33,467 bases of DNA from a virus: positions 1-33,467 of the IMG/VR virus record IMGVR_UViG_3300010392_000779; one strand, 5' to 3'. Positions 4,572 through 28,625 of the stretch are shown here, in pieces; positions within the stretch are counted from its first letter, which is position 1, and the number at the start of each line of letters is the position of its first letter. The notes under the pieces are model-generated. The model worked only from the letters and a program-made list of their open reading frames with translations. It was not told where the DNA came from and ran no database searches. Position numbers and translations under genes: made by a program.

Positions 4572-5018
4572 TCACTGGGTGGTCACTGTCTTGTCTGTAT
4601 AGACCCGGAGTGCAGCCATGGCCCAGTGGTTCCGGTCTTCTGCCTGTTCCACCAGGGTGACCTCACCAATCTCCAGGTGGGCCACTGCCCCGCTCAGGGT
4701 CCGGTCACCCATCAGGGCAACCTCAACTTCGTCCAGCATCCTATTTCTCAAACGTGCCGCTTCTGTTGCGTCAACCCCGCTCTGGTAGATGTCCACCGTG
4801 AACTCTGCCCGGAGGGCATTTTGTTGGCCCCCGGAGATGGCTGCAATGGCAACATCTTGATTGGTTCTCCCGGCAAACTGGACATTGATGACCCGGCCTG
4901 AGGGGATCTGCCTGGACTCATGGAGGACCATGGGATCACCATCAACAAAGGTCCGGTTGGCCAGGACCGTGGCAATGGCCTGGCCCACTGTCTCATATCC
5001 AAAGACTGTCTCTGCCAT
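4572..5018 (-). CDS. Tail terminator-like (tail completion) protein
   Basis: A 148-residue alpha/beta protein located between the gpG-like completion protein and the tail tube, where the ring protein that ends tail-tube growth is encoded. The N-terminal helix (AETVFGYETVGQAIATVL) and the later VDIYQSGVDATEAARLRNRM segment with a helix after a beta strand fit the small gpU/gp37-like terminators. ATG at 5018 overlaps the stop of the upstream gene as TAATG. The assignment comes from size, position and secondary structure pattern more than from residues, so a general minor tail protein is the alternative. Confidence 0.65.
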   Translation of the reverse strand: MAETVFGYETVGQAIATVLANRTFVDGDPMVLHESRQIPSGRVINVQFAGRTNQDVAIAAISGGQQNALRAEFTVDIYQSGVDATEAARLRNRMLDEVEVALMGDRTLSGAVAHLEIGEVTLVEQAEDRNHWAMAALRVYTDKTVTTQ

Positions 5019-5476
5019 TAGAACGCCCCCCCAGTCACTGCTGCATCAATCATGTTCTGCACCAGCCGCTGGGCATCTTTCTGGGCCACATCCAGCGGGG
5101 GCAGGATGGGCCTGGCCGGGATGTTCCGTTTGGGATAGCCAAACTGATGGGCTGCTGCATATTTGACATTCGTGCCAGGCCCAATTCTCACCTCAGTCCT
5201 GGTCACCCTGGGCACCTCAAAGGATCCCCGGAGTCTGTTTTTGTCAATGAGGATCCGGTCACTGCCCTTTCTGGCAATGGTGGCAGCCTTGAGTTTTTCC
5301 CAGGGCTTGATCTTCCCCTGCCTCCGGAAGTTGTCATCAATCCAGGCCACCTGGGAGTTCCCCACAGCTGCTGCCAACTTGGTCCCATCAAAGACCTTGC
5401 CCACCCTGGCAAGTGCCCTCTTGGCACGGGAGACATCAGCTGCAAGGGAAACCCTGGGGCCTTGGATGGAGGTCAT
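5018..5476 (-). CDS. Phage virion morphogenesis protein, Mu gpG-like tail completion
   Basis: A 152-residue protein with the features of the phage virion morphogenesis family (Phage_tail_S type): a central PWEKLKAATIARKG segment, ILIDKNRLRGSF, then VKYAAAHQFGYP and IPARPILP near the C-terminus. In this family the conserved GT.V.YA..HQFG and IPARP motifs mark the protein that finishes the head-tail joining region. Its stop overlaps the tail terminator start and its ATG at 5476 overlaps the end of the 116-residue gene, so the three are one translational unit. The family call is firm; the precise step in this phage is inferred. Confidence 0.85.
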   Translation of the reverse strand: MTSIQGPRVSLAADVSRAKRALARVGKVFDGTKLAAAVGNSQVAWIDDNFRRQGKIKPWEKLKAATIARKGSDRILIDKNRLRGSFEVPRVTRTEVRIGPGTNVKYAAAHQFGYPKRNIPARPILPPLDVAQKDAQRLVQNMIDAAVTGGAF

Positions 5477-5823
5477 TTTTTCCGGCCATTCCTTTTGGGT
5501 GCAGCCTTGGTCTTGGCCTTGGCTTTGGTGGCCCGTTTCTGCTGCCGGTTGGGAGGTGCCGGCGCATCCGGGACATCCTCCCCGGCCAGGATCTTCTCAG
5601 CCTGGGTTTTGAAGGCCAGGCCCTGCTGGAGAAGGCTGGCATGCAGTTCACCGGCCTCAGCAATGGGCCGGGTCTGCAGCAGCTGCAGGATATAGTGGAG
5701 CCCGGCCAGGGTCATCCGGGGGGCCACAGAGAAGCTGGCCACCGCAATGTCATGCTGGTTGGGCTGTCCTGGGGCCTGGGCCTGGGCCTGAGCCGGTGCC
5801 GGGTTGTCATTGGTGTTGGTCAT
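5473..5823 (-). CDS. Hypothetical protein with basic Lys/Ala-rich C-terminus
   Basis: A 116-residue protein not assigned to any family. The N-terminus is low-complexity Gln/Ala/Pro (residues 8-22), the middle is a helical domain with many Leu and Gln (about residues 35-80), and the last 30 residues are strongly basic (RQQKRATKAKAKTKAAPKRN). A GAGGAAATC ribosome-binding site precedes the ATG at 5823. It is the first gene of the tail-completion group after the modification cassette and overlaps the next gene by 4 bases. A structural or DNA-contacting role at the head-tail joint is possible but is only inferred from position and charge. Confidence 0.8.
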   Translation of the reverse strand: MTNTNDNPAPAQAQAQAPGQPNQHDIAVASFSVAPRMTLAGLHYILQLLQTRPIAEAGELHASLLQQGLAFKTQAEKILAGEDVPDAPAPPNRQQKRATKAKAKTKAAPKRNGRKK

Positions 5824-5886: not shown

Positions 5887-6753
5887 TCAACCGGCCAGGA
5901 TCTGGGGCACAAAATCATCCAGCTGCTCTGGCTTGGAAACCCCAATCACGGCCTGGAGAACATAGGGCTTCTCCAGCACCCAGCTGAGGGCACGGACTGC
6001 AGGGACAAAGCCGGAGGCCCGTGCATCTGCCACCCACTTCCGGGCAATGGGATAGTCCAGATCCAGGGTGTCCAGGGCCAGTTTCTTCCCACCCCACCTC
6101 CAGTCATTTTCCACCCAGGAGATCCGGCTGTCTTCATCTGCAAAGCCGGATTCATATCTCCCGGCCAGCCAGCCATAGTGGAAGATCCCATAGGCTTGGC
6201 ACGGCACCGGGGCCTGGTTGAGGCCGGTATCATCACAGATGGGGTTGAGCCGGTTCTGAGCCCACCTGGGAGGCTTCACCCCCAGATGCTCAGCCAGGGC
6301 CACATAGTCCTCCCAGTCCTCAAAGGGGCAGTTGGAGAGGCCCCAGTCCCGGATGGCCCCGTCCCTCATCAGGGTCTCAAAGCCACGGATGTGCTCTGCC
6401 CGGAGTTCCGCCTGGTCCAGGCCCTCCCTGGTGCCGGGCCAGTGCAGGAGGCAGATGTCAAACTGCTCCACCCCAATGGCTTTCAGCTGGTGCTCTGTGT
6501 CTGCAATGACTGAGGCCCTGGTCTCCAGGGATCCCAGCACTTTGGTCTGGATCTTCACCTTGGTCTTGTCACCCCAGAGGGCCAGCACCTCATTGGTGAT
6601 GCCATAGGTGTCGGGCTGCATGGGTGCGGGATAACCAAAGGCCGTGTCCACTGACCGGATCCCCAGGTCATAGGCCCGGTCCAGGATCCTCAGACTCTGT
6701 TCCGGGGATCTCTGGGATCCAAAGATCATTGTGCCTAAGCTCAGTTTCTCCAT
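5887..6753 (-). CDS. Aldo/keto reductase, Tas-like
   Basis: A 288-residue NAD(P)H-dependent aldo/keto reductase. The catalytic tetrad is visible as Asp36, Tyr41 (DTAFGY), Lys71 (QTK) and His104 (LLHWPG), and the YPAPMQPDT segment resembles the YPVPP motif of Tas-type members. The C-terminal VIGVSKPEQLDDFV matches the cofactor 2'-phosphate/adenosine region. Length is normal, so it should be an active enzyme. The ATG at 6753 is preferred over a GTG at 6762 because AGGTGAG lies 6 bases before it. Its first 86 bases overlap the oxygenase gene in another frame. A carbonyl-reducing metabolic enzyme inside a virion operon is unusual; the substrate is unknown, a sugar or sugar-derived carbonyl being one guess from the nearby glycosyltransferases. 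Confidence 0.92.
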   Translation of the reverse strand: MEKLSLGTMIFGSQRSPEQSLRILDRAYDLGIRSVDTAFGYPAPMQPDTYGITNEVLALWGDKTKVKIQTKVLGSLETRASVIADTEHQLKAIGVEQFDICLLHWPGTREGLDQAELRAEHIRGFETLMRDGAIRDWGLSNCPFEDWEDYVALAEHLGVKPPRWAQNRLNPICDDTGLNQAPVPCQAYGIFHYGWLAGRYESGFADEDSRISWVENDWRWGGKKLALDTLDLDYPIARKWVADARASGFVPAVRALSWVLEKPYVLQAVIGVSKPEQLDDFVPQILAG

Positions 6754-7537
6754 AGTGCTCACCTATTGCCTTTTGCCTGGCCCATGCCGGATCTCCATCA
6801 GGGAGGGGTGGGGTGCATTGATCCAGCCAGAAGCTGGCCCTTTGGTCACCCCAGTTGTGGCTGAACAGTTCACCAAACATCATGAACCTCTCCCCCTTTG
6901 TCACCGGGGTCAACTCATGGAACATCACGGACGGGAAGATGAGCCAGTCACCCTTGGTGAACTTCCGCTCAAACCCATAGCTGGGGATCCGGAAAATTCC
7001 TCCCTCATAGTCATCAGCATCCGTGAGATAGATGAGGCCCAGGGCTGTCCGGAAGTGGGGATGGGTCAGCTGGCCCCCGTCCTGGTGAAGGGCAAACCAG
7101 TGGCCGGTCTCATATCTGACAATCTGACCTCTCCGGCCAATGTGGGAAGGCCCAAAGACATTGGGCAGCTGGGCCAGCCACTTTCTCATGATGGGATCCA
7201 TGACAGAGTGCCAAAACTCATAGTGATCAGCACACGGACCTTGTTGGTGCATTGTGGTGCCCCAGCACTTCCGGCCCGGATCAACACACCCCTCTCCTGT
7301 GGAGGGATCCATGACCACCTGGCCGGGGGTCCATTCACACTCAGAGAGATCCAGGTCCGGGACATCCACATTGCCGGTCCAGATCATCTTCTCCGGCTCA
7401 ATGATGACATCACCCTGGGCATTGATCTCCGCCAGGTCTTCCTCTGTCCAGAGCGGGTGGTTGGGATCCGGGTGGATGGTGAGCCGGTCTATGAGATCCT
7501 GGTCCACCTTGCGGGGATCTATGTCCTTGCCGTTCAT
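6668..7537 (-). CDS. 2-oxoglutarate/Fe(II)-dependent oxygenase, prolyl-hydroxylase-like
   Basis: A 289-residue protein with a double-stranded beta-helix oxygenase domain at about residues 135-225. Iron ligands are His151 and Asp153 (ALHQDGG) and His207 (MFHELTPV); Arg217 (KGERF) is placed to bind the 2-oxoglutarate carboxylate. The EGGIFRIP and KGDWLIFPS strands match the 2OG-FeII_Oxy_3/P4H group rather than TET/JBP. Residues 1-130 are an extra N-terminal region with several Cys (67, 84, 91, 102) and no family I know. The start at 7537 has GGGAG about 9 bases upstream; a longer frame to 7669 is Pro/His low-complexity and lacks a site. The last 28 residues are encoded over the reductase start. 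Likely substrates are a protein side chain or a sugar; not determinable here. Confidence 0.9.
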   Translation of the reverse strand: MNGKDIDPRKVDQDLIDRLTIHPDPNHPLWTEEDLAEINAQGDVIIEPEKMIWTGNVDVPDLDLSECEWTPGQVVMDPSTGEGCVDPGRKCWGTTMHQQGPCADHYEFWHSVMDPIMRKWLAQLPNVFGPSHIGRRGQIVRYETGHWFALHQDGGQLTHPHFRTALGLIYLTDADDYEGGIFRIPSYGFERKFTKGDWLIFPSVMFHELTPVTKGERFMMFGELFSHNWGDQRASFWLDQCTPPLPDGDPAWARQKAIGEHYGETELRHNDLWIPEIPGTESEDPGPGL

Positions 7538-7550
7538 GGTTCTGAACTCC

Positions 7551-8078
7551 CTAGAGGGATGATGGTGGCAGTGTGGTGGTGGGTGGCAGCGTGGTGGTGG
7601 TGCTGGTGGTGGTTCCGCCCCCGGTGTCCCGTGCATAGATATAATAGTGACCCTGCATGGCCACATCATCAGACTGATATTCCTGCTTTACCTCCACCAG
7701 GAGATGGCATTCCTCAATGGTTCCATTGGTGTTATTGGAGAACTCCCAGTTGACCGTGGCACTGTCCCGGAAGCTGTGCCAGGTGTTCACGGCCAGGCCA
7801 ACATCCGGAGTGTCACCAGAGAGGACCGTGGCTTTGACCAGCCAGTCCTCCAGGTTGTCACCGCCATTGCCAGCCCCGGAAAGAAACTCACTGAGCCATT
7901 GGTGATTGTTGTTGTTATAGGTGCCGGATCTCCGGTCCACCTGGGTGTCTGCCCCAAACCTCCAGCCAGCATTGGCTGTGCCCGTGACCGCCCGTGAGGC
8001 CACCTCCGGGGATCCAGATGTGCCCAGCAGACCCTTGGTCCCAAAGCCTCTGGATCTTCCGTGACTGTTGCTAGGCAT
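7551..8078 (-). CDS. Hypothetical virion-associated protein with Thr/Pro-rich tail
   Basis: A 175-residue protein beginning MPSNSHGRSRGFGTKG, with ATG at 8078 inside the last codons of the fibre gene (stop at 8071). A longer frame to 8171 lies within the fibre C-terminus and is rejected. Residues 30-145 are beta-rich, with NTWHSFRDSATVNWEF and HLLVEVKQEYQ strands; the last 22 residues are a Thr/Pro run (TTTSTTTTLPPTTTLPP), like secreted-protein stalks. It follows the giant fibre protein directly, so it may be a fibre partner or cap. The tail could be an O-glycosylation target, which would suit the glycosyltransferase nearby, but that is speculation. Family unknown. Confidence 0.75.
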   Translation of the reverse strand: MPSNSHGRSRGFGTKGLLGTSGSPEVASRAVTGTANAGWRFGADTQVDRRSGTYNNNNHQWLSEFLSGAGNGGDNLEDWLVKATVLSGDTPDVGLAVNTWHSFRDSATVNWEFSNNTNGTIEECHLLVEVKQEYQSDDVAMQGHYYIYARDTGGGTTTSTTTTLPPTTTLPPSSL

Positions 8079-11000
8079 CGTCCACCGCATCCTCAGTGAA
8101 ATTGACTGTGATGCCCACCAGCCGGGCAACGTCTGCCAGTGTATCAGATCCATCTCCCCCAAGTCGAGCAACCCGGATCACCAAGAGATCTCCCTTGGCT
8201 GCCGTGCCAGCTGCCGTGACTGCAGGGGTGGCTGCACTGTGCATGATGTCATCAGCGGCACCACCGGCACCATCCGTGACGGTCTGGGCCGTGCCAAAGG
8301 CCGTGTCCGGTGCATCATTGTCACCCAGGGCAATGGCCTCCACCTGCCACACCACATTCCCTGTGGTGGCCGTGGGGGCATACCAGGTGAACTCCACTGT
8401 GAAGGTGCCAGCATCCCATGCTTTCTTTGGCCGGAACGCGATCTGGGCATATTCCGTGGCCCCGTCCGCGAACTCCATATATTCCATCATCACATCGTTG
8501 GTGGCGTGTTCCTCATAGGCCAGGGCTGCCCCGTTTGTGACCTGAGGCACCATGGAGTTGGCTGCCTTGTATTCCTGGAACGTGCCCTGGGCTTTCAGAC
8601 CGGCCTCATCAAGGGTCCGGTTGATGAACGTGCCGGAGGATGACTGCAGGATCTCATTGTCTGCCAGTCCACTGAGGGTCACATCAGACAAGTCATTGAG
8701 TGCAGATGCACCGCCACCCCCTGCCGTGGTGCTCACCGTGTCCCAGTTGGTGGCATCCTTGGCAAAGAACTGCACGGACTCTCCAGCAGCCAGGGTGGTG
8801 CTGGTGTTCACGCCAAGCCCGTCAATGTTACCTCCGGTGGCCGGGAAGATCTGCAGGGTGTTGGCACCATTGTTGATGATGGTGATGCAGAGACCGGCTG
8901 CAGCTGTGGGCAGGGTCACCACATCATTGGTGGTCCCAACCGTGCTGATCTCATTCCAGTTGCTGAGCAGGGCGCCCTGGCCCTGGGTCTGGGTGGTGGC
9001 TGCCGTGATGCCAACATGGGCCTCCCAGTTGGTCAGCACATGGGAACTGGCCATTGAAGAATACCAGGCAGACACACCGCCAAGGGAAAGCCCCATCTGG
9101 TCAATGGCATCTGCATATAAACCGACATCAGCAGCTGTCCGGAGCCGAAGACCAGGAGCAGAGACAGATCCGCCATCAAAGGCAATGACCTGGTTGGCTG
9201 CCATGATCAGATCCCAGCTGAGGTCAAACTGAGAATTGGTTGAGTCCAGGTTGAAGGCTGTGGACATGCTGCCATTCACCATGGTGGCAAAGGCAACATC
9301 CACATCCTCAGTGCCAGCACCTACGCTGACAAAGCTGCCCTCAATTTTGAACACTTCATTGAGGACATTTGCGGCATCATCAATATAGGCACCCCACTTG
9401 AAACCAAAGCCGGTGGCAGGTGTGCCGGTGGACTTGGTGTGGGTCCGGAGTGTTTCTGCAACTGCAGCTGTCCCGGCCCCGGCATTTTCCAGGACAATGG
9501 CCCGGTTGCCCTTGCTCAGCAGCCCCAGATAGATATTGGCATCATCACCAACTGCAGACAGGTAGGGGATCCCACTCGTGGCTGCATTGGTGATCTGCAG
9601 GTGGTTGACTGCAGAGGCCGTGGCAGAGAAGACCAGCTGTTCATTTCCGTTGGCATCATTGAGCCCAAACGTGGCCAGGCCAAGGTTCCCACCAAGGACA
9701 GGGGAAGTGTCAGCACTGACAGAGGCAATGCCAGCCGGGAGGTCATCATAATCCACCTTCCGCATGCCCACACCGGCCTCAAAGATCAGCACCTTGTCAC
9801 CCGTGGTGAAGGCACTGGCCGTGGTCACATCATCAATGGCAGCCCAGTCAGCCTCATTGCCCAGGTCAATGTTGCTGATGGTGTTATTGTCACCGTCAAT
9901 GGTTTTGCTGGTCAGGGTTTCTGCATGGGCAGCAAAGACAAAGGTGTCATTGCCGGTCAGCAGTGGCAGTGTGACGGTCCGGTCAGCAATGAGTTCACTG
10001 ACTGCAAAAACATATTGGTGGTCAGCAGAGGTGTCATTGATCTGTGGTGTGGTCAGCACCGGGCTGGCCAGGGTCTTGTTGCTCAGGCTTTCTGCACCGG
10101 CCAAGGTGGCAAAGTCATCATCAGACAGGGCTGTGTTGAATTGCGCCGTGGTGCCGGTCAGTGTTCCCTCAGCCAGATCCAGCGTGAGGGTGTTGCTGGC
10201 AGAGTCTATGGTCTTTGATGTCAGGGTCTGGCTGCCGGAGATGGTGGCAACTTCCACACCACCGGCCTGGACCACACCAGCTGCTTTGGGCACCAGGTTG
10301 ATGCTGATGTTGGTGTCCGTTCCCAGAGCCTGGATCTGTAGGGCATTGAGGGTGGCAGAGTTGGCATAGCCAAAATAGTTCACCGCTGATGCCGTGCTGG
10401 TGAAACGGAACATTTCATTGAGGTTGGCATCATTGAAGCCAAAAGCACCCAGTTCCAGATGGCCACCAAGGGTGGGGCTGGTGTCATCCACCACCGCAGC
10501 AAGGCCACCGCCGCCACCCGGCCAGTTGTCCAGGTCCACTTTCCGCAAGGCACCAAGGCCGGTGTCATAGATGACCCCAAAGTCACCGGAGCCCGGAGCC
10601 GCTTGCTCTGTGAGCCCATTGATGTCCATGGCAATGCTGGTGGTTGAGATGGCCAGGCCATCACCCACGGTCAGGAAAGCCATGGCACCGGCACTGTCAT
10701 CCCAAAACAGGATCCGGTCTGCATTGGGATCCACCAGGTCTGCAATGTCCTGGAGGAAGGCATCCTGGGCCTGGACATTGGTGCCAATGGCAAGGCCCAA
10801 ATTGGTTCTGGCATCACCTGCCGTGCTGGCCCCGGTGCCCCCGTCTGTCACGGCAACATCCGTGCCCCCCACATAGTGGATGGCAGCCCCTCCCATGGTC
10901 ACGGCAGTGCTGAGATCCATGGTGGGTGTGGTTGCAGCGGTCAGGGTGACAAAGGTGGTCCATGCCGCACCATCGGTGTCCCTGGCTTGGATGAGCAGGG

Positions 11001-14000
11001 TGTCATTGAGAGTGGTGCCGGTCCGGATGGCCCCAGCATTGGAGATCCCCAGCCCAGCAAAGGTGGGGCTGTCAGCCTGGGCAAGGCTCTGGTCCAGGCC
11101 TCCCAGGTAGCCCCACTGAGCAGCACTGATTGTGGTGGCACCAATGTTCTGGAGTTCACCCAATTCAGCTGCTGTGAGGGGGTTAGCGGCAAACACATCC
11201 AGGTTTGCAGAGTAGGGCTGCACATCCGTGCTGATCACCAGGCCCAATGTGGCTCTGGCCGTTGCGGCATCAGCGTCATCCACCAGGCTCCGGCCAAAGG
11301 CCGTGAACGTGGCCAGGCTGGCCGCTCCAGATCCTGTGAAATAGGGAAGCCGGTCAGCCGCGCTGACCAGGCCAGCAATGGCAGCCAGTTCCGCATCTTG
11401 TGCCTGGACATCCGTGCCAATCACTAGACCCAAAGTGGTCCGGGCAGCACTGGCATCAGCATCATCCACCAAGGATCTGCCAAAGGCAGTGAATGTGGCC
11501 AGATCCGCTGTCCCGGATCCGGTGAAGTAGGGCAGCCGGTCAGCTGCAGAAGTGAGACCGGCAATGGCTGCAAGTTCTGCATCCTGGGCCTGGACACTGG
11601 ATCCAATGTCACCACTGGTCAGGATCCCGGCATTGGAGATGAAGTCAGAGACAGCCACCTTGTTGCTGGCATTGGCATCCGAGACATCCACAAAGGGGAT
11701 GAAGTCACCGGAGGCACCGCCCGTGGCATCCGTGGTCAGTTCATCCAGGTCCACAGAAAGGGTGTTGCCGGACTTGGCCAGGCCGTTCCCTGCCGTGATC
11801 TGTCCGGCCCCGGAGAATTGTGAGAATGACAGGGCCGTGGTGTCCACCGTGATGGGGTCATTGGTGGTCAGCACCCATCCGGTGTCAGCATAGGTGGTGC
11901 CCTCAGTCACCCAGACAAAGAGCCCGGCAGTGACCTCAGCATCAGCATCTGCATCCGTGGCCCGTGACCAGGCCCCGGCTGCCGTGACATAGATCCCATT
12001 CTCAGCCGGGGTGGTCTGACCCGTGACCAGGATCCGGTCCGTGCTGGTCAGCACACCGTCAATGGTCTGCTCACCGGAGAGGGTGAGGTTGGAGGTGGCA
12101 ACCACCACCACCGAGTCCTTGACATCCAGGCCGGAGGCCACTGAGTCCACATAGGCCTTGGTGGCCGCATCCTGGGCTGCTGTGGGATCCGTGACATTGG
12201 TGATCTTGTTGGAGTTCATGGAGAAGTCCGCACCGGCATTGCCGGAGAGATCCGCCATGAGGGCAGCTGCATTGGCCAGGCCAACCACAGTCCTGCCATA
12301 GCTGGTGAAACTGGTGAGCCCTGCCGTTCCGCTGCCAGTGAAATATGGCACCTGGTCTGCAGCTGAGGTCAGGCCAGCGATTGCCGCCAACTCTGCATCC
12401 TGTGCCTGGACATCTGTTCCAATGACAAGGCCCAGCGTGGTCCTTGCAGCTGAGGCACTGGCATCATCAATCAGTGTCCGGCCAAATGCACTCAGGGTGG
12501 TCACATCAGCTGTGCCGGATCCCGTGAAATATGGGAGGGCATTGGCTGCTGATGTAAGACCGGCCAGGGCAGCAAGTTCTGTGTCAAAGGCCTGGACATC
12601 GGTTCCCACCGTGAGACCCAGGGTGGCTTGCATGGTGGCCTGGTCAGCATCATCCAGGAGCGTCCGGGCAAAGGCCGTGAGGGGTGTGACTGCATAGGTG
12701 TCAGAGGCGGTGGCATAGATCATCCGATCCGCAACGGTGGTCAGGCCAGCAATGCTGAGCAGCCCGGCATCATAGGCCTGGACATCAGACCCAATGGCCA
12801 GCCCCAGGTTTGTCCTTGCATCTGAGGGCGTGGATCCACCCGTGCCGCCATCAGCCACGGCCAGATCCGTGATGCCCGTGATCGAGCCACCAGTGATTGA
12901 AACACCGGTTGAGGCCTGTTGGGCCATCGTATCAAGCTCAAGGTTGGTCCGTGCATCTGCAGCTGTAGAGGCCCCGGTCCCGCCATCTGCAAGTGCCACA
13001 TCAGTTCCACCCACCACATAGGGGGCAGCACCGCCAATGGTGGCCGTGCTGATGAGATCCAGGGTGGGCACCGTGGCTGCTGTTGCGGTGAGCAGGGTGG
13101 TGTAGGCAGCACCGTCAGTGTCATAGGCCTGGATGATCAGCACATCATTGAGGGTCTGCCCGGTTTTGAGGGCATCCCCGTTGGTGACAATGATGTCATT
13201 GCCGGAGGTGTTGAGATCCCCACCCAGGTCAGGGGTGGTGTCCTCTGAGATGTTATTCAGACCGCCAGTGGCACCGGGGAGATCATCATAGTCAATCTGC
13301 CGGATCCCAATCCCGGCCTCAAAGATGACCAGCTTGTCACCAGAAGCAAAGCCGGTCCGGGCCGTGACACCACTGATGTCCAGGTTGAGGTTGAATGAGG
13401 CATCAAAGCTGAGGGCATCCCCGGCAGCACCAAAGACTACTGCGCCGGCAGAATCATCCCAGCCCATGAAGCGGTCAGCATTGGGATCTGAGAGGGCTGC
13501 CCCGGTGCCGCCATAGGCCAGGCCCACTGCAGTGCCCTGCCAGGTGCCGGTGCCCACTGTTCCCAGGGTGGTGATGTTGGCGGATCCCGGCCAGGCCGTG
13601 AGGGTGCTGGGCACCACTGCTCTGCCCGTGTCTGTCCCGGCATCCAGTTCCACCTGGGTGGCCAGTTCAATCACACCGGCTGTGCCCGTGGTGGCTGCCA
13701 CCTCATCCCCGGTGTTGGTGCCGGAGAGATTGGCCAGGGCTTGCCAGTTGCCCAGGGCAATGGAGGTCAGCCCAATGTTCTGCAGCTGGGTCAGTTCTGC
13801 AGCTGTCAGGGGGTTGGCTGCATAGACATCCAGGTCACCGCTCTGGGCCTGGACATCCGTGCCGATCACAAGGCCCAGGGTGCCCCTTGCCGTGGCTGCA
13901 TCTGCATCATCAACAAGGGTGCGGCCAAATGCTGTGAAGGTTGCCAGGGAGGCCGTGCCCAGCCCGGTGAAGTAGGGAAGGGAATCAGCAGCTGATGTCA

Positions 14001-15345
14001 GCCCTGCCAGTGCAGCCAGTTCAGCATCCTGGGCTTGCACATCTGTCCCAATGACCAATCCAAGGGTGGCTCTGGCCGTGCTGGCATCGGAGTCATCAAT
14101 GAGGGACCGGCCAAAAGCTGAAAGAGTGGTGACATCTGCAGTGCCAATGCCGGTGAAGTAGGGCAAGGCATTGGCTGCACTGGTGAGCCCGGCAAGGGCA
14201 GCCAGTTCCGCATCATAGGCTTGAACGTCAGTGCCAATAACCAGGCCAAGGGTGGTCCGGGCAGCAGCTGCAGTGCTGTCATCCAGAAGGGTCCGGGCAA
14301 AGCTGGTGAAGTCCGTGACAGCGGCAGTCCCGGCCCCGGTGAAATATGGGAGTTTATTTGCGGCACTGGTCAGCCCGGCAACGGCAGTGAGTTCATTGTC
14401 CAGGGGCTGATAGGTGGCATCATGGTTGTGGTCAGTTGCTGCAATCCCGGCCTCAGCCAGGGTCCGGTTGATCACCGTGCTGCCCTGATACTGCAGCACC
14501 TCCCCAGATCCTGCCGTGGTGATGGTCACATCTGTGAGGTCATTGAGGGCAGAGGCACCGCCTCCACCGCCCCCGGTGGGGAACTTGGTGAACAGGGCTG
14601 AAAAATATCCAGCAGAGTTCACTGACCAGATGGGGATCAGATCCGTGGTTTGGATGCTGCTGACCTGGGTGAGGCTCTGCACATTGAACAGGGCCTCTGT
14701 GCTCAAATAGAAGCTGCGAACACTGGTTTTCCGGCCCTGCCAGCCATTGGAACCAGAGGCAAAGGCCACCTCATCATTGAGGGTGGGGGTGGCCAGGACC
14801 AGGCCATTGATGCTGAACAGTGTGGCCGTGCCGGATCCGCCGCCCGTGGTGGACCGGGGGCTGCCCACATTGGAGAGATCCCTGGCAGTCCTGGGCTGTG
14901 CCTCCCAGTCAATTTCCTCATGGACATTGGGATAGCCATCCAGGCTGGTGATCACCTGGTGGTTGGAGTTGTCCGTGGCCGGAATAACGGTGCCGGAGCC
15001 GGAGAGAATGACTGCCTTGCCCTTCTCAATGGCATCCAGGAGGTTGATTGATTCCTTGTAACGGACCAGGACCGGATCATCATCCTGGAGCCCACCGGAC
15101 AGAGCAGAGATCCCGGCATAGAGGGAATAGATGCTGAAATTGGTGGCAATGCTCTGGAGGACCGGAGCCCCAAGGATGTCTGTGATGGTGTATTGGGAGG
15201 CCAGGCGAGAATTGATCCTGGCCTCCACATTGCCAATGTGCTCAGTGACTAGAGCGGAATTGACTGCCTGATAGCTTCCGATCTCCGGGGCCGTGGCAAA
15301 GACCTGGGAGACTGAGGTGTGGCTATTCGGGAGGGTGGAGGGCAT
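8071..15345 (-). CDS. Giant fibre-like protein with N-terminal gp36-like (DUF1320) connector domain
   Basis: A 2424-residue protein. Residues about 44-112 (from INSRLASQYTITDILG to LLDAIEKGKAVI) match the DUF1320/Mu gp36 pattern: a helix with a RY-type motif, a Pro-Val-Leu helix, an aromatic Y.LY helix, and V..RY...I..L..I..GK. Next come a linker and a Gly6 run (about 250), then at least eight copies of a 62-residue fibre repeat with AGLTSAA..LPYFTG and LGLVIGTDVQA in three clusters. Residues about 1058-1185 hold a TKAYVDSVASG domain (ENGIYVTAAGAW) common in fibres. The rest alternates DTSP.LGG and GGTGAST modules and ends in a beta-sandwich (about 2300-2420) that may bind sugars. AAGGA lies 10 bases before the ATG; its start overlaps the glycosyltransferase stop by 23 bases. 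The connector-fibre fusion is odd; a neck fibre is the inference. Confidence 0.88.
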   Translation of the reverse strand: MPSTLPNSHTSVSQVFATAPEIGSYQAVNSALVTEHIGNVEARINSRLASQYTITDILGAPVLQSIATNFSIYSLYAGISALSGGLQDDDPVLVRYKESINLLDAIEKGKAVILSGSGTVIPATDNSNHQVITSLDGYPNVHEEIDWEAQPRTARDLSNVGSPRSTTGGGSGTATLFSINGLVLATPTLNDEVAFASGSNGWQGRKTSVRSFYLSTEALFNVQSLTQVSSIQTTDLIPIWSVNSAGYFSALFTKFPTGGGGGGASALNDLTDVTITTAGSGEVLQYQGSTVINRTLAEAGIAATDHNHDATYQPLDNELTAVAGLTSAANKLPYFTGAGTAAVTDFTSFARTLLDDSTAAAARTTLGLVIGTDVQAYDAELAALAGLTSAANALPYFTGIGTADVTTLSAFGRSLIDDSDASTARATLGLVIGTDVQAQDAELAALAGLTSAADSLPYFTGLGTASLATFTAFGRTLVDDADAATARGTLGLVIGTDVQAQSGDLDVYAANPLTAAELTQLQNIGLTSIALGNWQALANLSGTNTGDEVAATTGTAGVIELATQVELDAGTDTGRAVVPSTLTAWPGSANITTLGTVGTGTWQGTAVGLAYGGTGAALSDPNADRFMGWDDSAGAVVFGAAGDALSFDASFNLNLDISGVTARTGFASGDKLVIFEAGIGIRQIDYDDLPGATGGLNNISEDTTPDLGGDLNTSGNDIIVTNGDALKTGQTLNDVLIIQAYDTDGAAYTTLLTATAATVPTLDLISTATIGGAAPYVVGGTDVALADGGTGASTAADARTNLELDTMAQQASTGVSITGGSITGITDLAVADGGTGGSTPSDARTNLGLAIGSDVQAYDAGLLSIAGLTTVADRMIYATASDTYAVTPLTAFARTLLDDADQATMQATLGLTVGTDVQAFDTELAALAGLTSAANALPYFTGSGTADVTTLSAFGRTLIDDASASAARTTLGLVIGTDVQAQDAELAAIAGLTSAADQVPYFTGSGTAGLTSFTSYGRTVVGLANAAALMADLSGNAGADFSMNSNKITNVTDPTAAQDAATKAYVDSVASGLDVKDSVVVVATSNLTLSGEQTIDGVLTSTDRILVTGQTTPAENGIYVTAAGAWSRATDADADAEVTAGLFVWVTEGTTYADTGWVLTTNDPITVDTTALSFSQFSGAGQITAGNGLAKSGNTLSVDLDELTTDATGGASGDFIPFVDVSDANASNKVAVSDFISNAGILTSGDIGSSVQAQDAELAAIAGLTSAADRLPYFTGSGTADLATFTAFGRSLVDDADASAARTTLGLVIGTDVQAQDAELAAIAGLVSAADRLPYFTGSGAASLATFTAFGRSLVDDADAATARATLGLVISTDVQPYSANLDVFAANPLTAAELGELQNIGATTISAAQWGYLGGLDQSLAQADSPTFAGLGISNAGAIRTGTTLNDTLLIQARDTDGAAWTTFVTLTAATTPTMDLSTAVTMGGAAIHYVGGTDVAVTDGGTGASTAGDARTNLGLAIGTNVQAQDAFLQDIADLVDPNADRILFWDDSAGAMAFLTVGDGLAISTTSIAMDINGLTEQAAPGSGDFGVIYDTGLGALRKVDLDNWPGGGGGLAAVVDDTSPTLGGHLELGAFGFNDANLNEMFRFTSTASAVNYFGYANSATLNALQIQALGTDTNISINLVPKAAGVVQAGGVEVATISGSQTLTSKTIDSASNTLTLDLAEGTLTGTTAQFNTALSDDDFATLAGAESLSNKTLASPVLTTPQINDTSADHQYVFAVSELIADRTVTLPLLTGNDTFVFAAHAETLTSKTIDGDNNTISNIDLGNEADWAAIDDVTTASAFTTGDKVLIFEAGVGMRKVDYDDLPAGIASVSADTSPVLGGNLGLATFGLNDANGNEQLVFSATASAVNHLQITNAATSGIPYLSAVGDDANIYLGLLSKGNRAIVLENAGAGTAAVAETLRTHTKSTGTPATGFGFKWGAYIDDAANVLNEVFKIEGSFVSVGAGTEDVDVAFATMVNGSMSTAFNLDSTNSQFDLSWDLIMAANQVIAFDGGSVSAPGLRLRTAADVGLYADAIDQMGLSLGGVSAWYSSMASSHVLTNWEAHVGITAATTQTQGQGALLSNWNEISTVGTTNDVVTLPTAAAGLCITIINNGANTLQIFPATGGNIDGLGVNTSTTLAAGESVQFFAKDATNWDTVSTTAGGGGASALNDLSDVTLSGLADNEILQSSSGTFINRTLDEAGLKAQGTFQEYKAANSMVPQVTNGAALAYEEHATNDVMMEYMEFADGATEYAQIAFRPKKAWDAGTFTVEFTWYAPTATTGNVVWQVEAIALGDNDAPDTAFGTAQTVTDGAGGAADDIMHSAATPAVTAAGTAAKGDLLVIRVARLGGDGSDTLADVARLVGITVNFTEDAVDDA
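11230..11620 (-). repeat. Fibre repeat cluster C (two 62-residue units)
   Basis: Two copies with cores near 11549 and 11362, both reading SAADRLPYFTGSG and LATFTAFGRSLVDDADA. These two are closer to each other than to clusters A and B, suggesting a recent duplication of a 186-base unit. They are followed by the QPYSANLDVFAANPLTAAEL module that also follows cluster A. Confidence 0.8.
12250..12810 (-). repeat. Fibre repeat cluster B (three 62-residue units)
   Basis: Three more copies of the same unit, with cores near 12736, 12552 and 12363. The first copy is the most divergent (GLTTVADRMIYATASDTYAV replaces the usual core). The last runs into a GLANAAALMADLSGNAG step before the TKAYVDSV domain. 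Confidence 0.8.
13850..14410 (-). repeat. Fibre repeat cluster A (three 62-residue units)
   Basis: Three in-frame copies of a unit of about 186 bases, with the GLTSAA core near 14367, 14180 and 13996. Each unit encodes AELAALAGLTSAAN.LPYFTG, then a TLSAFGR.LIDD step, then AR.TLGLVIGTDVQA. Copies differ at many third positions, so the repeat is conserved as protein and drifts as DNA. Confidence 0.82.
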
Positions 15346-18304
15346 CCCAGGCTGGTCCTTCTAGGCTTTCCAGCTTGGCCTTCACTTCTCCCTGGAGGAA
15401 TGTCCTCAGGTCATCCATGGAGGCAAAGCAAATCACATCCGGGTCCGTGCCGGGGTCTGGGACCGGATCTCCCTGCCCACGGCGACTGATGTCAATTTTG
15501 ATCCGTGCCTTGATGTCACCGCCCAGCACCTGGGCTGCCTGGCTGTAAAAGGGCACGGGTGAAACCTCCACCAGCCCCCAATCCTTACCTAAAAAGCGTT
15601 CCCTGAATGTGGTGATGGTCTGCTGAGCACACTGAATGACAAAATCATCCACCTGCCCTCCGTTTTCCCGGAGCCGGTTGGTGGCCATGATCATGGCATC
15701 CCGGCAGATCAGCTGCACCTGCAGCTTCCGGTCCGGGTTTTCCTGCATGTCCCGCTCCATGAGAGGGGCATTGCGCCAAAAGCGCCCCTGTCTGACCCTC
15801 TCATCCTCATAGCCAATGTGCATGATGTTGAGATCTTCTGCCCGGCCAACCCGGCCCGGCCCCTCATTGGCATCCATCTCTGGGTGTTCATGCACCAGCC
15901 CCCTGAATCGGTTTCTGGGCTCAGCTGTCCGGTGGAAACACCTCACCGGAAGATCAATGTGGCTGTCCACATCCACCCCAAAGTGGTGCTGCCGGACAGA
16001 CCAGCCCCGATAGAAACCAGACTTGAGATATTTGACCAGCTGCTGGGAGTCCGTGAATTTTTCATCATCATCAATCCACAGCACCCAGTCCATCCGGCAC
16101 TCATCCAGCACCAGGTTCCGGGCAGGGCCAAAGCCAATCTCCAGCGGTGACGGGATCTCCACCAGTCTGGCCCCGAATTTAGCGGCAAGGGCTTTGGATT
16201 CCGGGCTCATCCCGTTGTCACCAATGACAATCTCATCAGAGATCCACCGGACTGAGTTGAGGCACCATTCCAGGGTTTCCTCAACACCAGGGCCACAGAT
16301 GAGCATGGTGGAAAGGGTCTCCCTGGGCACCACCCACTCCAGCTTTTCCTCCAGGTCCGGATTCTTGATGGGCATGTGGTCTGCCCGGTAGGCCACCAGC
16401 TGGTGACCCCAGCCATCTCCGGTGGCCGTGTTCACACCCTCCGGCATCACCTCAAAGACGGGCTCACCATATTCCACCTTCCCGCTGAACATCCGGGTGA
16501 GGTCCGGCCTGGTGAACTCCCGGAGGTGCTGTCTGCAGTGGGTCCAGTTGTGGGTGGCATATTCCACCGGCCCAAACGGCACAGTGATGAGCATGTCACC
16601 GCCTTTGATCACGCATCCCTCAACCCTGGCCACGGTCTCTGCCGGATCCAGGACATGCTCCAGCACCTCTGACAGCACACCCACATCAAACTCCGGCAGG
16701 GGGACATAATCATCCACCAGTTCAAATTGGACCCGCTCCTGGATCCCGGCTTGCACGGCCAACTTCTCAGCCCAGCTGATGGCATTGGCATCAAAGTCCA
16801 GCCCACAATATTTGACCGTGGCCGGGGTGTTCAGGGCAACAAAGGCCCCAAACCATCCGTGGCCACAACCAAAGTCCAGGATCTTGAACTCCACCTCAGG
16901 ATCTCCGGTCTCCTGGATCTTCCGCTGATGGGCTTCGCGGATCTTGCCCAGCATGTGGCCAAAGCGGGGCTCATCATCCTTGGTCCCAAGATATTCCGGG
17001 GAGAACTTCTCCAGGTTCCGCTCCAGCTGCTGATTCACATCATCCGTGAACTGACTATAGTGCTCATGGATGGTCTCCTGATTTTCCAGCCAGGAATAGT
17101 CCCGCTCCAGGATCTCTGCCTCAGCCCGGCCCACCAGGCCCTGGTCCACCAGATACTGGCAGCCCTCAATCTCAGATCTCCGGAGCCAGTGATAGAAGAC
17201 CCGGCTTTTGTCCTGATTCTTTTCCTGCACGGCCTCACGGATCAGATCCTCCCAGGCATCCCCGGCTGCTTTCCAGGAGAAGTCCTTGCCACCGCCAAAG
17301 GCCTCACCCTTGTCCCGCCGTTCCATGAGCCGGAGGATGTTTTTGACCATGCTTTCATGATCACCAACCTTGCTCAGTTTGGCCCCGGAATAGCCTTTGA
17401 GGGTTTCTGTGGAAGCCCCCCACCTGGTGGTGGCCACGGGCAGCCCACACTGCATGGCCTCCATGAACGTGATGCAGCTGACCTCAGCAAAGTCCGGCAT
17501 GGCCGGGCTGGGGCATGGGTAGGCCAGGACACCGGAGCAGCGCATCAGTGTGTAGAGGTTGGCCTTGGATTGAGGTGGCAGCCAGATCACCTTGTCACCG
17601 TATTGGGCACCCAGTTCCTTGCACCGCTGGATGATGTGGGCTGTCCGGTCAGTGGGGTTGTCATAGGTGCAGATGTGGACCGTGGCCTTGGGATTCCGCT
17701 CCAGCACCTTGGGGAAGATCTCACCCAGGAGCACATCCAGGCCCCGCTCTGGCCGGGAGGTGTAGAGGATCCGGTTGGGATCAAATGGCATGGCGCCCAC
17801 CGGATCCTCCGGCACATCCACCGCATTGTGGACCACCCGGAAAAGATCTTTGACCGATCGCTGGTCAAAGCCGGTCTCATAAACCCGCTCATATTCCCGC
17901 TTGTGGAACTGGGAGACAAAGGCCACCCGGTCAATGTTCCAGAGGGCAGACCGGAACTCATGGCCAGCCTCTATCATGGGAAGATCATGCTGCCACAGGA
18001 TGTTCAGCTGGCTCAGGGACCGGCGAGAAAACAGCAGGGGGATCCGCTGCACAATGCTGGTGTGGTGAGGGTAGGCCCCGGCATAGGCCTCATAGTTCTG
18101 GATGTTGGTGAACCGGACCCGGCTGTCCTCTTTGCTCTGAGGATCTGGGTGACTGGTGAAGACCAGGACATTGTGGTCCCGCCTCCCAAGTTCCTCAGCC
18201 AGGCCAAGGGCCACTGATTCGGATCCGCCAAGGCTGTTTCCTTGGTCAATGGTGTGGGCATCAAAAGGCATTCCGGCTGCCAGAATGGCAATATCCAAGC
18301 GCAT
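15323..18304 (-). CDS. Triple-domain enzyme: GT4 glycosyltransferase, SAM methyltransferase, GT2 glycosyltransferase
   Basis: A 993-residue protein with three enzyme domains in one chain. Residues 1-380 are a GT-B, GT4-type glycosyltransferase: N-terminal LGGSE loop, ILYTSRPERGLD (about 180-191), and the donor-binding E-x7-E region in EVSCITFMEAMQCG (about 272-285). Residues about 470-625 are a class I methyltransferase, with SAM motif DFGCGHGWFG (about 476), the acidic LDFDAN and a VLSEVLEHVLDP loop. Residues about 660-900 are a GT-A, GT2-type glycosyltransferase with DEIVIGDNGMS and the metal-binding WIDDDEKF (about 742-749). The last 90 residues are helical, then Pro/Asp-rich. ATG at 18304 follows GGAGACCTGAACC. 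It sits directly before the fibre gene. A role in building a methyl-capped glycan on a virion protein or on host surface is inferred; substrate unknown. Confidence 0.9.
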   Translation of the reverse strand: MRLDIAILAAGMPFDAHTIDQGNSLGGSESVALGLAEELGRRDHNVLVFTSHPDPQSKEDSRVRFTNIQNYEAYAGAYPHHTSIVQRIPLLFSRRSLSQLNILWQHDLPMIEAGHEFRSALWNIDRVAFVSQFHKREYERVYETGFDQRSVKDLFRVVHNAVDVPEDPVGAMPFDPNRILYTSRPERGLDVLLGEIFPKVLERNPKATVHICTYDNPTDRTAHIIQRCKELGAQYGDKVIWLPPQSKANLYTLMRCSGVLAYPCPSPAMPDFAEVSCITFMEAMQCGLPVATTRWGASTETLKGYSGAKLSKVGDHESMVKNILRLMERRDKGEAFGGGKDFSWKAAGDAWEDLIREAVQEKNQDKSRVFYHWLRRSEIEGCQYLVDQGLVGRAEAEILERDYSWLENQETIHEHYSQFTDDVNQQLERNLEKFSPEYLGTKDDEPRFGHMLGKIREAHQRKIQETGDPEVEFKILDFGCGHGWFGAFVALNTPATVKYCGLDFDANAISWAEKLAVQAGIQERVQFELVDDYVPLPEFDVGVLSEVLEHVLDPAETVARVEGCVIKGGDMLITVPFGPVEYATHNWTHCRQHLREFTRPDLTRMFSGKVEYGEPVFEVMPEGVNTATGDGWGHQLVAYRADHMPIKNPDLEEKLEWVVPRETLSTMLICGPGVEETLEWCLNSVRWISDEIVIGDNGMSPESKALAAKFGARLVEIPSPLEIGFGPARNLVLDECRMDWVLWIDDDEKFTDSQQLVKYLKSGFYRGWSVRQHHFGVDVDSHIDLPVRCFHRTAEPRNRFRGLVHEHPEMDANEGPGRVGRAEDLNIMHIGYEDERVRQGRFWRNAPLMERDMQENPDRKLQVQLICRDAMIMATNRLRENGGQVDDFVIQCAQQTITTFRERFLGKDWGLVEVSPVPFYSQAAQVLGGDIKARIKIDISRRGQGDPVPDPGTDPDVICFASMDDLRTFLQGEVKAKLESLEGPAWDALHPPE

Positions 18305-20454: not shown

Positions 20455-20841
20455 TTAGGCCAGCGGCGCGTTCGGAATGAACGGCGATTGAATCATCCGG
20501 ATGACTGCACCAGACCCCGTGGCAGTGGTCAGTGCACGGCCAACCACAAACTCACCAGAGGTGGCCGTGACTGCAAGCCCGTTTGCATCCGAAGCGAGAA
20601 GGATCCCAGCTGAGCCAATGGCTGCACCGGCAATGACCTTGGTCTCATCACCTGGGCGTGAGACAGATGCCATCTGGCCGGAGTTGGGATCATTTTGGAG
20701 GACACCCATTGCATCCTGGTTCCCGGCATTGGCCAGGTTCACAGTCCCGGCAGCAGTGAGCCGCAGGATCTTGTATTGATGGGTGCGAAGGTCAGCTGCC
20801 GCCTCAAGGCTGAGAGGGTTGACCAATCCTGAAAGGCTCAT
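20455..20841 (-). CDS. Head decoration protein, DUF2190-like
   Basis: A 128-residue, Ala/Gly-rich beta protein with the DUF2190 layout: an early YKILRLTAAGTVNLA strand, AMGVLQNDP, then MASVSRPGDETKVIAGAAI, SAGILLASDANGLAVTA and VVGRALTTATGSG. These proteins trimerise on the capsid exterior and stabilise it. The gene sits between protease/scaffold and capsid, its usual place. A strong GCAGGAGAAAGACA ribosome-binding site suits a protein needed in many copies. Confidence 0.85.
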   Translation of the reverse strand: MSLSGLVNPLSLEAAADLRTHQYKILRLTAAGTVNLANAGNQDAMGVLQNDPNSGQMASVSRPGDETKVIAGAAIGSAGILLASDANGLAVTATSGEFVVGRALTTATGSGAVIRMIQSPFIPNAPLA

Positions 20842-22044: not shown

Positions 22045-22106
22045 GACCGGAATCCTTAGCCCCAAAGTGTGCCGGGAATGTTGGAAAATGTTGCCATGGT
22101 GCATTT

Positions 22107-25939: not shown

Positions 25940-26358
25940 TGGCCTGGGAGACCATTAAGAAAGGCTCAAAAAGAACTGGTTGGTGGGGGAAGATAGGGGA
26001 GCGGGGCAAAGACCTGGCCCTCACCTTCTCCCTCAGCTGTGATGGGGATGAGTGGCCCTTTGACCCGAATCTCCGGTGGCTCAAGATTGAGAGGGGCACG
26101 GGAGACCAGCTGGGCCGGTTCAAGCTGAGCCCTGGTGAGGAAGGGGATCACAAGGTGGCGATCTACAAGGCTTGCACCAGGTTGATCCGGCTGCCCTGGA
26201 ATGAATCCCTGCCCATGGACACCATGGCCCGTGAGCCCTGGGCCTGGGAACAGCTGCCTGGTGGCCCTGTGATCCTCACCATCCCAGAGGCCTGGGCTCA
26301 ACACCGTGATGAGATCATCAAAATGGAAGCAGAGAAGGAAGACCCGGAAACGGACTAA
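25939..26358 (+). CDS. Hypothetical protein (139 residues), last gene of plus-strand island
   Basis: Starts MAWETIKKGSKRTGWWGKIG, a beta-rich protein with acidic C-terminal tail (EAEKEDPETD). The ATG at 25939 overlaps the preceding stop; the GTG at 25924 is not used. The small basic plus Trp N-terminus recalls small proteins encoded near phage replication or regulation genes, but no family is identifiable. It ends tail-to-tail with the portal gene, with stop codons sharing two bases, leaving no room for a terminator between. Confidence 0.72.
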   Translation: MAWETIKKGSKRTGWWGKIGERGKDLALTFSLSCDGDEWPFDPNLRWLKIERGTGDQLGRFKLSPGEEGDHKVAIYKACTRLIRLPWNESLPMDTMAREPWAWEQLPGGPVILTIPEAWAQHRDEIIKMEAEKEDPETD

Positions 26359-28625
26359 AAGCCCTTCCCGCTCAATTCAATGGCACGGTCTGCCTGGCTC
26401 TGGTTGATCCGGTCAGCCTGGTCAATGTCCTGGCCAATCATCACCGGCACCCACAGAGATCTGCACTGGTGGTGCCGGGGTGGTGTCAGCCGGTCCATCT
26501 CTGGGCTGCCCAGCCGGAAGACCTTGCCATCCAGGGATCTGCAAACCTCAGTTTCCCGGCCATCAATGACAGCTGAGAACTGAGCCCCCTGGACAAACTC
26601 CCCAGCGGCAGCCATGGATCTCAACCGGCCCTGGTTGAAGGCATCATTGTAGTTTGTCCGGACAATGACCTCAGCCCGGTGCCCGGAGATCTCTCCATCA
26701 TACTCAGCAAAGATCTCACGGATCCTGGACTTCACCTGCTCCAAGGTTTGACCCTGGGCCACCCCGGTCAGCAGGGCTTGCTTCACCTGGGACACCACGG
26801 CCTGGTCAGTGGCCTGGGCCACGGTGAGGGACTTGCTGTCCAGATAGGCCAGCTGCTCCTGGGGTGTGAAGTCAGCACGGAAGTCAACCTGGCGCTCTAT
26901 CTCATCAGCTGCTGTCCGTGCCCCGTCTTCCACTGCAGCTGTCAGGAGATCCCGGACAGTGCCCTGGAGGGAATTGAAGTTGGGGATGTGCTCATATTGG
27001 CCCACCAGATCTGAGGTGACCTGCTTTGCACTATCCAGCCACCTGAGGGTCCGTTTCTCAGCTGTCCTCATGACCTGGCTGAGTTCGGCCGTGCCCTCAT
27101 CCTCACCCTCTGCAATGACGGTGAACAGCCGGGTGATGTCAGCCCTCTGCTCTGCAATGGTGAGTTCCCGGTTGGGGGTTTCCGGAATGGCAAACTTTTT
27201 CACCATCTCCGGTGTTGCGGCAAGGATGGACTGGACCTGCTGGGCCACTTCATCCTCACTGTCATCCTCACTGTCATCCTCACCGGGCTCATCATCAGTG
27301 TCCTGATTGTCTTGGCTGCCGGGTTGAGGTGGGGTGGGTGGTCCGGGCAGTTCCTCACCCTCTGCTGGGGGAGGGGGCATTTTATACATCTCACGGAAGT
27401 GTTCTTCATCCTGAGCACCACGGCGCACCACATTGGCATTGACCAGGGTGGCCCAGGCATCTGCCAGCTCTGTTTTGATTTCATCCGTGAGCGGATTGAA
27501 TTTGAAAACTGGATATTCATCAACATTGGCCCAGTTGATGTCCACCATCTGCCGGATGACCTGCTCATTGATGGCAGCCTCCAGTTCACGCTGGGCATTG
27601 GCAATCACCAGCAGGAAGCTGTCAAAGTGGGTGTTGGATCTGGCCAGGCTGCCAACCTGGTCATCTGAGGTCATCCCAATGAGAGATGGCATCAGGATGG
27701 CACGGGCAATGTGGCGGTCATAGAGATTGATGGCCACCACAAAGGTCTTCTCCAGTTCCTTGGCCAGGGCCGGTGACCAAAACTCCAGATCATCCTTCTC
27801 ATTGCGGGGCACAGAGGCTCCGGTGCCAACCCGGATCTTGTTGACCAGGTTCTGGATCTCACCGGCAATGCCGCCGCCTTTGTAGGTCTGGGCATTGTAG
27901 AGGGCAAAGATGGGAGGGATCCCATACTTCTCCAGCAGCATAGCCATCCACTTGTAGGCATTGTCTTTGGTCCACCATGGGCGATAGGCAGTCCTCAGAT
28001 CTGAGTTCCCATAGGGATTGGAAAACTCCATTTGATAGCTGTAGATGAGGAACTTGCTGACCGGCAGTCTCCGGTCAGCCTCATTCATGGACCAACCACC
28101 ATATTGCCCCTGGATCAGCCCGTCCGGCTTTAGGTTGCCATAGGAATCCACATCAAAATCAAAGCCATGGGGATATTTGGGCTTGAGACCGGCCAGGCCC
28201 ATCCGGCCATCCCGGTCCTCATAGACTTTCTCTGTGATGGAATAGCCATAGTCCATGGCTGTGAGGATCTGGTGCAGCACATGCTCCACAGTCCCAGGAA
28301 GTTCTCTCAGTTCCCGCTCCACCCACTTGGTGATTTCATCATCACTGGACTTGCCCTCTGGGGGCTGGATGGTGAAGCCCGGAGCACTCACGGCCAGTTT
28401 CTTGAATGAGAGGGCTGCCCTGGCCTGGTCATCCAGTCTGATCTTGTCATAGATGTCCAGCGTCTTGTTCTGGACCAGCAGATCCGGATTGAAGGGACTG
28501 CCCTTCCAGTGGCTGAAATTTCCCAGCGGATCCCGGAGGGCTAGATCTTCCATCAGTGTCCTCATGGACACCGGCTCATTTGGTTTTTGGGCAAAGGGCA
28601 GCATGCTCATGGTCACAGATCCCAT
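26355..28625 (-). CDS. Portal protein (DUF935-like) fused to MuF head-morphogenesis domain
   Basis: A 756-residue fusion. Residues 1-420 match the Mu gp29-like portal family (DUF935): DKIRLDDQARAALSFKKLAV, GYSITEKVYEDRDG, WMAMLLEKYGIPPIFALYNA and a GMTSDDQVGS helix. An acidic, Pro-rich linker follows (about residues 420-465). Residues 560-740 have the MuF/SPP1 gp7 pattern, including RTNYNDAFNQGRLRSM (about 657), EVCRSLDGKVF (about 692) and PPRHHQCRSLWVP. In Mu these are separate genes (gp29 and gp30); here both head functions sit in one chain. Start could be ATG 28625, or ATG 28610 after the terminase stop. It overlaps the large terminase end by 13 bases if 28625 is used. Confidence 0.88.
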   Translation of the reverse strand: MGSVTMSMLPFAQKPNEPVSMRTLMEDLALRDPLGNFSHWKGSPFNPDLLVQNKTLDIYDKIRLDDQARAALSFKKLAVSAPGFTIQPPEGKSSDDEITKWVERELRELPGTVEHVLHQILTAMDYGYSITEKVYEDRDGRMGLAGLKPKYPHGFDFDVDSYGNLKPDGLIQGQYGGWSMNEADRRLPVSKFLIYSYQMEFSNPYGNSDLRTAYRPWWTKDNAYKWMAMLLEKYGIPPIFALYNAQTYKGGGIAGEIQNLVNKIRVGTGASVPRNEKDDLEFWSPALAKELEKTFVVAINLYDRHIARAILMPSLIGMTSDDQVGSLARSNTHFDSFLLVIANAQRELEAAINEQVIRQMVDINWANVDEYPVFKFNPLTDEIKTELADAWATLVNANVVRRGAQDEEHFREMYKMPPPPAEGEELPGPPTPPQPGSQDNQDTDDEPGEDDSEDDSEDEVAQQVQSILAATPEMVKKFAIPETPNRELTIAEQRADITRLFTVIAEGEDEGTAELSQVMRTAEKRTLRWLDSAKQVTSDLVGQYEHIPNFNSLQGTVRDLLTAAVEDGARTAADEIERQVDFRADFTPQEQLAYLDSKSLTVAQATDQAVVSQVKQALLTGVAQGQTLEQVKSRIREIFAEYDGEISGHRAEVIVRTNYNDAFNQGRLRSMAAAGEFVQGAQFSAVIDGRETEVCRSLDGKVFRLGSPEMDRLTPPRHHQCRSLWVPVMIGQDIDQADRINQSQADRAIELSGKGF
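27251..27284 (-). repeat. 12-base tandem repeat in portal linker
   Basis: The unit catcctcactgt occurs twice exactly and once partly in a row. On the coding strand it gives Asp/Glu/Ser repeats (DSEDDSEDE) in the acidic linker between portal and MuF domains. Slip-strand expansion is a simple explanation, and linker length may vary between relatives. Confidence 0.85.

Follow-up and report, generated by a model that had tools for sequence, protein, structure and literature searches.

The head-tail adaptors of phages Mu (gp36) and JBD30 (gp41), which belong to the DUF1320 family (PF07030), are class 2 'neck 1' proteins (PMC10491603). The Mu adaptor consists of twelve subunits beneath the portal (PMC11915804). 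The adaptors of Mu, JBD30 and Douge are known as twelve-subunit rings that bind the portal through a C-terminal arm. This arm passes into the cleft between clip domains of the portal and follows the stem toward the capsid; its end is flexible in Douge and extends to the capsid vertex (PMC11915804, PMC11445458, PMC13033339). The gene considered here is carried by an uncultured virus of bacteria (IMG/VR record IMGVR_UViG_3300010392_000779). The window is the complete linear virus record of 33,467 bases; this record is a linear fragment, and statements on gene content cover these 33,467 bases only. The product shares its family, fold and gene position with Mu gp36 and JBD30 gp41, and a Mu-type portal is encoded here too. 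Whereas known members of this type have about 140-165 aa and nothing past the C-terminal arm, about 2,250 fibre residues follow the adaptor here. Both the adaptor identity of the N-terminus and its fusion to the fibre in one frame are held with high confidence.

The adaptor-fibre open reading frame (ORF) extends from 15345 to 8071 on the minus strand; it starts with an ATG at 15345 and encodes 2,424 aa with zero internal stops. An earlier note, made by a model from the letters alone, had described it as a head-tail connector domain fused to a fibre, and it is confirmed as one open frame. Residues 1-158 (14872..15345, minus strand) correspond to a Mu gp36-type head-tail adaptor domain and its C-terminal arm, according to PF07030, phrog_195, syntenic stand-alone orthologues, an AlphaFold2 (AF2) model and Foldseek. 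When the N-terminus is scanned alone, residues 20-124 match PF07030 (Phage_Mu_Gp36) with 30.1 bits (E 6e-7), above the curated cut-off of 24.7 bits; the whole 2,424-aa protein scores 24.7 bits, exactly on the cut-off. The N-terminus also matches phrog_195 'head-tail adaptor' (E 1.7e-7). The domain proposed in the earlier note is therefore upheld by profile and fold, its span being wider than the residues 44-112 given there. The AF2 model, built from a 24-sequence alignment with viral orthologues, has a predicted local distance difference test (pLDDT) score of about 70-87 across residues 10-126. Its best four PDB matches in Foldseek, each with a probability of 1.0, are 8rka (JBD30 connector adaptor), 5ydn (Mu neck subunit), 9knu and 9khx (Mu neck chains); the fifth-ranked match has a probability of 0.13. 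The fold is thus the alpha-helical adaptor fold of the Mu gp36 family. PDB sequence searches gave no match; the fold search alone gave matches. The gene lies between the major capsid gene and the tail completion and tube genes, which is the position of Mu gp36 and the one recognised in the earlier note. Its size, 2,424 aa, is not that of a stand-alone gp36 (about 140-165 aa): the gp36 domain belongs to the family, and the whole protein is a fusion.

Homology to adaptors is firm up to about residue 125 and weak up to residue 156, where the alignment ends. The sequence then passes via NVGSPRSTTGGGSGTA (about residues 159-174; 14824..14871, minus strand), a Gly/Ser/Thr-rich linker with pLDDT <50 and an unbroken coding frame, into the fibre (8581..14823, minus strand). 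The fibre portion of about 2,250 residues is a mosaic of tail-fibre modules; it includes beta modules, 62-residue repeats and a 'head decoration/virion structural'-type domain at residues ~1033-1200. Residues 160-310 have weak fibre matches only, beginning at residue ~230, and numerous tail-fibre PHROGs match residues ~300-1400, the best with E 5e-73. The 62-residue unit is present in seven copies, starting at residues 332, 394, 456, 937, 999, 1271 and 1333. The earlier description of this part as fibre repeats and beta-domains agrees with these matches and repeats. The repeat and beta modules are those of a phage tail fibre; the N-terminal domain by which such a fibre docks to the tail or baseplate is absent, and the adaptor occupies the N-terminus. 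The C-terminal tip (about residues 2256-2424; 8071..8580, minus strand) is predicted to be a beta-sandwich. Residues 2259-2424 share 41% identity with the C-terminus of gp74 (388 aa) of EBPR siphovirus 2, a separate protein encoded near the tail genes of that phage. Modelled from its single sequence, the tip gives a beta-sandwich of low confidence, and the PDB entries that match it best are the carbohydrate-binding modules CBM35 and CBM36 (E about 0.002), a hint that the predicted domain is possibly carbohydrate-binding. A scan of viral contigs with the tip domain found no relatives.

A joining of two genes by an assembly or sequencing artefact, either a chimera or a base error that removed a stop codon or shifted the frame, is very unlikely, since the junction does not interrupt the coding frame and no exact repeat of at least 30 bases, which would allow assembler jumps, occurs anywhere in the record. 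Codon usage, scored after training on ten further genes from the record, is best in frame 0 in 239/239 windows along the gene, junction included; no frameshift joins two genes. The junction sits at the end of the adaptor, within the Gly/Ser linker, and the G+C content is similar on both sides (0.57 in the adaptor part, 0.60 in the fibre part). No in-frame ATG occurs between residues 1 and 627, which leaves no candidate for a lost fibre start. The synteny described below places both flanks of the inserted DNA in the same kind of virus, and a chimera would thus require two joins. What speaks for an artefact is that the arrangement is known from a single metagenomic record: a scan for the exact junction DNA turned up no second, independent contig that carries it. 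Two ways of making separate products from the frame were considered and rejected. For programmed frameshifting that would yield a short adaptor, no in-frame slippery heptamer was found; the candidates for an internal fibre start are limited to GTG/TTG codons, whose Shine-Dalgarno-like sequences are weak (residue 222 is one example).

The nearest viruses found are G001 (36 kb; capsid protein 34% identical) and G047 (31 kb; portal 38% identical). Each has a stand-alone gp36 of about 165 aa, at the same place as the fused gene, and these are the split versions for which the earlier note had proposed a search. The adaptor domain is 34% identical to the gp36 of G047 over residues 4-123 (blastp), and the gp36 of G001 matches adaptor residues 9-130 (blastp, E 3e-10); the global alignment with the stand-alone orthologues is the one that extends weakly to residue 156. 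In both relatives, the capsid side of gp36 is occupied by a glycosyltransferase/methyltransferase (GT/MT) protein, 30-32% identical across ~1,030 positions to that of the record, where a GT1-methyltransferase-GT2 protein of 993 aa (15323..18304, minus strand; Pfam) adjoins gp36. G001 encodes the GT/MT protein on the opposite strand, with an ORF of 136 aa between it and gp36. In both relatives, the other side of gp36 holds the tail-completion, terminator and tube genes, and the tail-completion position comes directly after gp36; the gene found there belongs to phrog_26 in G047, as in the record (5018..5476, minus strand; phrog_26 E 2.2e-22, PF05069), and has no PHROG match in G001. By alignment and gene order, the fused gene is the orthologue of stand-alone gp36. 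Because the two nearest viruses carry a separate gp36 at the same place with the same flanks, the comparison of the three viruses suggests that this lineage gained ~9.4 kb between the gp36 terminus and the tail-completion gene (the fibre and four small genes), fused in frame on one side. The fibre-encoding block would have entered precisely where a stand-alone gp36 gene ended, and the gp36 stop codon would have been lost. Viral-contig scans using the N-terminus or the capsid protein singly found no relatives, and a genome-contig scan using the gp36 alignment found none.

The four small genes of the putative insertion are all on the minus strand. The first encodes 175 aa (7551..8078), has its own ATG, which overlaps the fibre stop codon, and gives no Pfam match for 7551-8072. 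It is followed by a 2OG-Fe(II) oxygenase gene (6668..7669, longest ORF, with a start likely near 7537; PF13640 E 1.8e-8), an aldo/keto reductase gene (5887..6762; PF00248 E 4.6e-27) and, at the far edge of the block, a 116-aa gene (5473..5823; no Pfam or PHROG match). The oxygenase and reductase genes (5887-7669) thus lie in the stretch that separates the fibre from the tail-completion gene. Neither relative has such genes there, and the two may have arrived together with the fibre.

The gp36 complement of the virus bears on the possibility that the gp36 domain of the fused protein serves solely for docking: the ring would be formed by another, stand-alone gp36 encoded beyond the sequenced part, and the fused protein would replace a few subunits or sit on top. 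A linear fragment could miss such a paralogue, and mixed rings would relieve crowding. However, the fused gene occupies the orthologous gp36 locus and is the sole PF07030 match in the record, in agreement with the earlier observation that no stand-alone gp36 lies between capsid and tail; both nearest relatives likewise show one PF07030 match per record. This possibility is therefore judged improbable.

A fibre on the C-terminus of gp36 was found in no second case among 36 viral and ~179 prophage gp36 genes. For viral-contig loci encoding relatives of the domain, 36/37 are readable, and all of these (36/36) end about 165 residues after the conserved start. A PF07030 search of about 1,615 bacterial genomes gave 184 matches, about 179 of them distinct; when the twelve longest-looking frames were read, the adaptor terminates the frame in 10/12, the surplus length being upstream of its start, and of the remaining two, one is a broken fragment and the other an unrelated oxidoreductase whose match is weak and partial. 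Among the long frames rejected as fusions on reading is one of 765 aa, from an alphaproteobacterium (G586), that matches gp36. The domain profile, run against all ORFs of 314 loci, revealed no fused C-terminal fibre. Loci sharing the N-terminal region of the fibre are mostly matches to the common 'LNDLTDV...' fibre motif, and none has a fused gp36. A description of an adaptor-fibre fusion was not found in the open-licence literature, and a giant fibre continuous with an adaptor appears undescribed. The earlier opinion that no described phage has this arrangement stands for the covalent fusion and not for fibres anchored at the neck, which are known (XM1, A-1(L), T4, 936/TP901-1); the novelty is the covalent link.

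Since a neck-ring protein is joined to the fibre in one unbroken gene, the fibre most likely grows from the neck: the protein would be an adaptor carrying its own fibre, and the fibre is probably displayed at the neck of the virion. The N-terminal ~158 residues would replace gp36 and form a 12-subunit ring under the Mu-type portal (26355..28625, minus strand; PF06074 E 1.6e-55), which is fused to a Mu F-like domain (PF04233) and with which the adaptor is expected to pair. The first part of the C-terminal arm would insert between the portal clip domains. The arm would enter sideways, and the Gly/Ser/Thr linker would turn outward below the capsid, because a fibre on the end of the arm could hardly be threaded inside. 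The fibre of about 2,250 residues would then leave the neck and end in the predicted beta-sandwich tip, which might bind glycans of the host surface. Were the fibre trimeric like those of known phages, the twelve chains would make up four fibres. At the residue spacing of the T4 long tail fibre, 2,250 residues correspond to a length of the order of 120-150 nm, and the 786-residue tape measure (622-2982) implies a tail near 120 nm (both rough estimates); a fibre of such length could span the tail and touch the cell.

Neck fibres of other phages resemble this arrangement in part. In Anabaena phage A-1(L), the gp5 ring bears ~100-nm trimeric neck fibres made of gp82-gp81-gp80 (PMC10966104); there, as predicted here, long fibres are rooted on the ring directly beneath the portal, but the fibre proteins are separate and non-covalently bound, the ring has 15 subunits and the tail is contractile. 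A ring at the adaptor position can therefore hold such fibres non-covalently (gp5/gp82), which favours display at the neck. Vibrio phage XM1 has a collar spike, gp40, with six trimers at the neck (PMC10457771). XM1 gp40 and the T4 whiskers (Wac) are likewise neck spikes or fibres with proposed host sensing; they differ in being separate trimers bound to neck proteins, XM1 gp40 via its own N-terminal Ig-like domain. The neck passage structure of lactococcal 936/TP901-1 phages consists of siphophage neck fibres with terminal carbohydrate-binding modules; it is a separate protein of 500-900 aa, with a proposed collar ring of its own, and is unfused to the adaptor (PMC6669499). Collar and neck fibres are thus separate, non-covalently bound proteins, whereas one continuous reading frame is found here. 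Orf9 (334 aa) of Gordonia phage GMA3, encoded at the adaptor gene position, is a precedent for the extension of a gp36-like adaptor by another domain, which also favours the proposed arrangement; in Orf9 (L231 10402-11406; PF07030 21.8 bits, just under the cut-off), this domain has ~180-200 aa and is N-terminal and non-fibre. Two other loci encode candidates for neck structures. In Arthrobacter phage Ottawa, the gene of gp102 (767 aa, hypothetical; L006 13339-15642) lies between the capsid gene and the head-to-tail stopper gene, and gp102 is a possible collar or neck protein. In Roseobacter phage CRP-6 (L002 6003-9730), two fibre genes and a fibre-assembly chaperone gene lie between the portal and major capsid genes; these are possible head or neck fibres.

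Several points weigh against display at the neck. In solved adaptors, the C-terminal arm passes the clip cleft and then follows the portal stem toward the capsid instead of pointing outward (PMC11445458, PMC13033339); as the arm in Mu, JBD30 and Douge runs up the stem, the fibre chain must leave that path to emerge. The distal adaptor arm is poorly conserved here and has pLDDT <50. Twelve copies of a 2,250-residue fibre are a heavy load for one ring, and the scans of viral contigs and of fibre-sharing loci revealed no near relative that shares the junction. The geometric difficulty would be lifted if a single adaptor-fibre chain were cleaved in the course of assembly and the released fibre attached elsewhere, e.g. 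at the tail tip. Phage heads of this type possess a maturation protease (here phrog_976; 20872-22104), and the fibre modules look like those of ordinary tail fibres. Such a polyprotein nevertheless seems unlikely: no protease or autocleavage domain is recognised at the junction, adaptors generally join after DNA packaging and thus later than head proteolysis, and coupling a tail fibre to the copy number of the adaptor would be an odd route. On the preferred reading of an uncut adaptor carrying its fibre, it is conceivable, though doubtful, that a receptor-binding fibre and the ring under the portal, which helps to retain the DNA, are one polypeptide through which contact of the fibre tip with the host could be passed mechanically to the neck, as a second trigger of genome release at the head end acting through four trimeric fibres on a twelve-subunit ring.

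The genes of the record are ordered, from right to left: terminase (28613-30001, minus strand), portal, protease, decoration/scaffold-type protein (20455-20841), major capsid protein (19475-20440), three small genes, GT-MT-GT protein, adaptor-fibre, 175-aa protein, oxygenase, aldo/keto reductase, 116-aa protein, tail-completion/neck protein, probable terminator (4572-5018, by position), tail tube (3430-4383) and tape measure. No sheath gene is recognised in the record; a long non-contractile tail is therefore likely. A TET-associated glycosyltransferase (TAGT; PF20691 E 1.9e-41) is encoded near the terminase together with a ParB_N protein (genes at 30322-31389 and 31232-31909, both minus strand); this neighbourhood suggests that the virus has glycosylated hypermodified DNA. 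A TAGT relative that is 54% identical lies beside the terminase of a Planctomycetales metagenome-assembled genome contig (L136). The terminase matches genes of Lentisphaerota/Victivallales and Planctomycetota genomes nearly over its full length (39-46% identity), a possible clue to the host.

If the proposed arrangement is true, the adaptor ring would be a direct carrier of host-binding fibres, one class beyond the four proposed neck-1 architectures (PMC10491603). This would raise the structural question of how twelve C-termini leave their normal course up the portal stem, exit and pair into fibres, and it would provide a natural example of a large cargo on the C-terminus of an adaptor.

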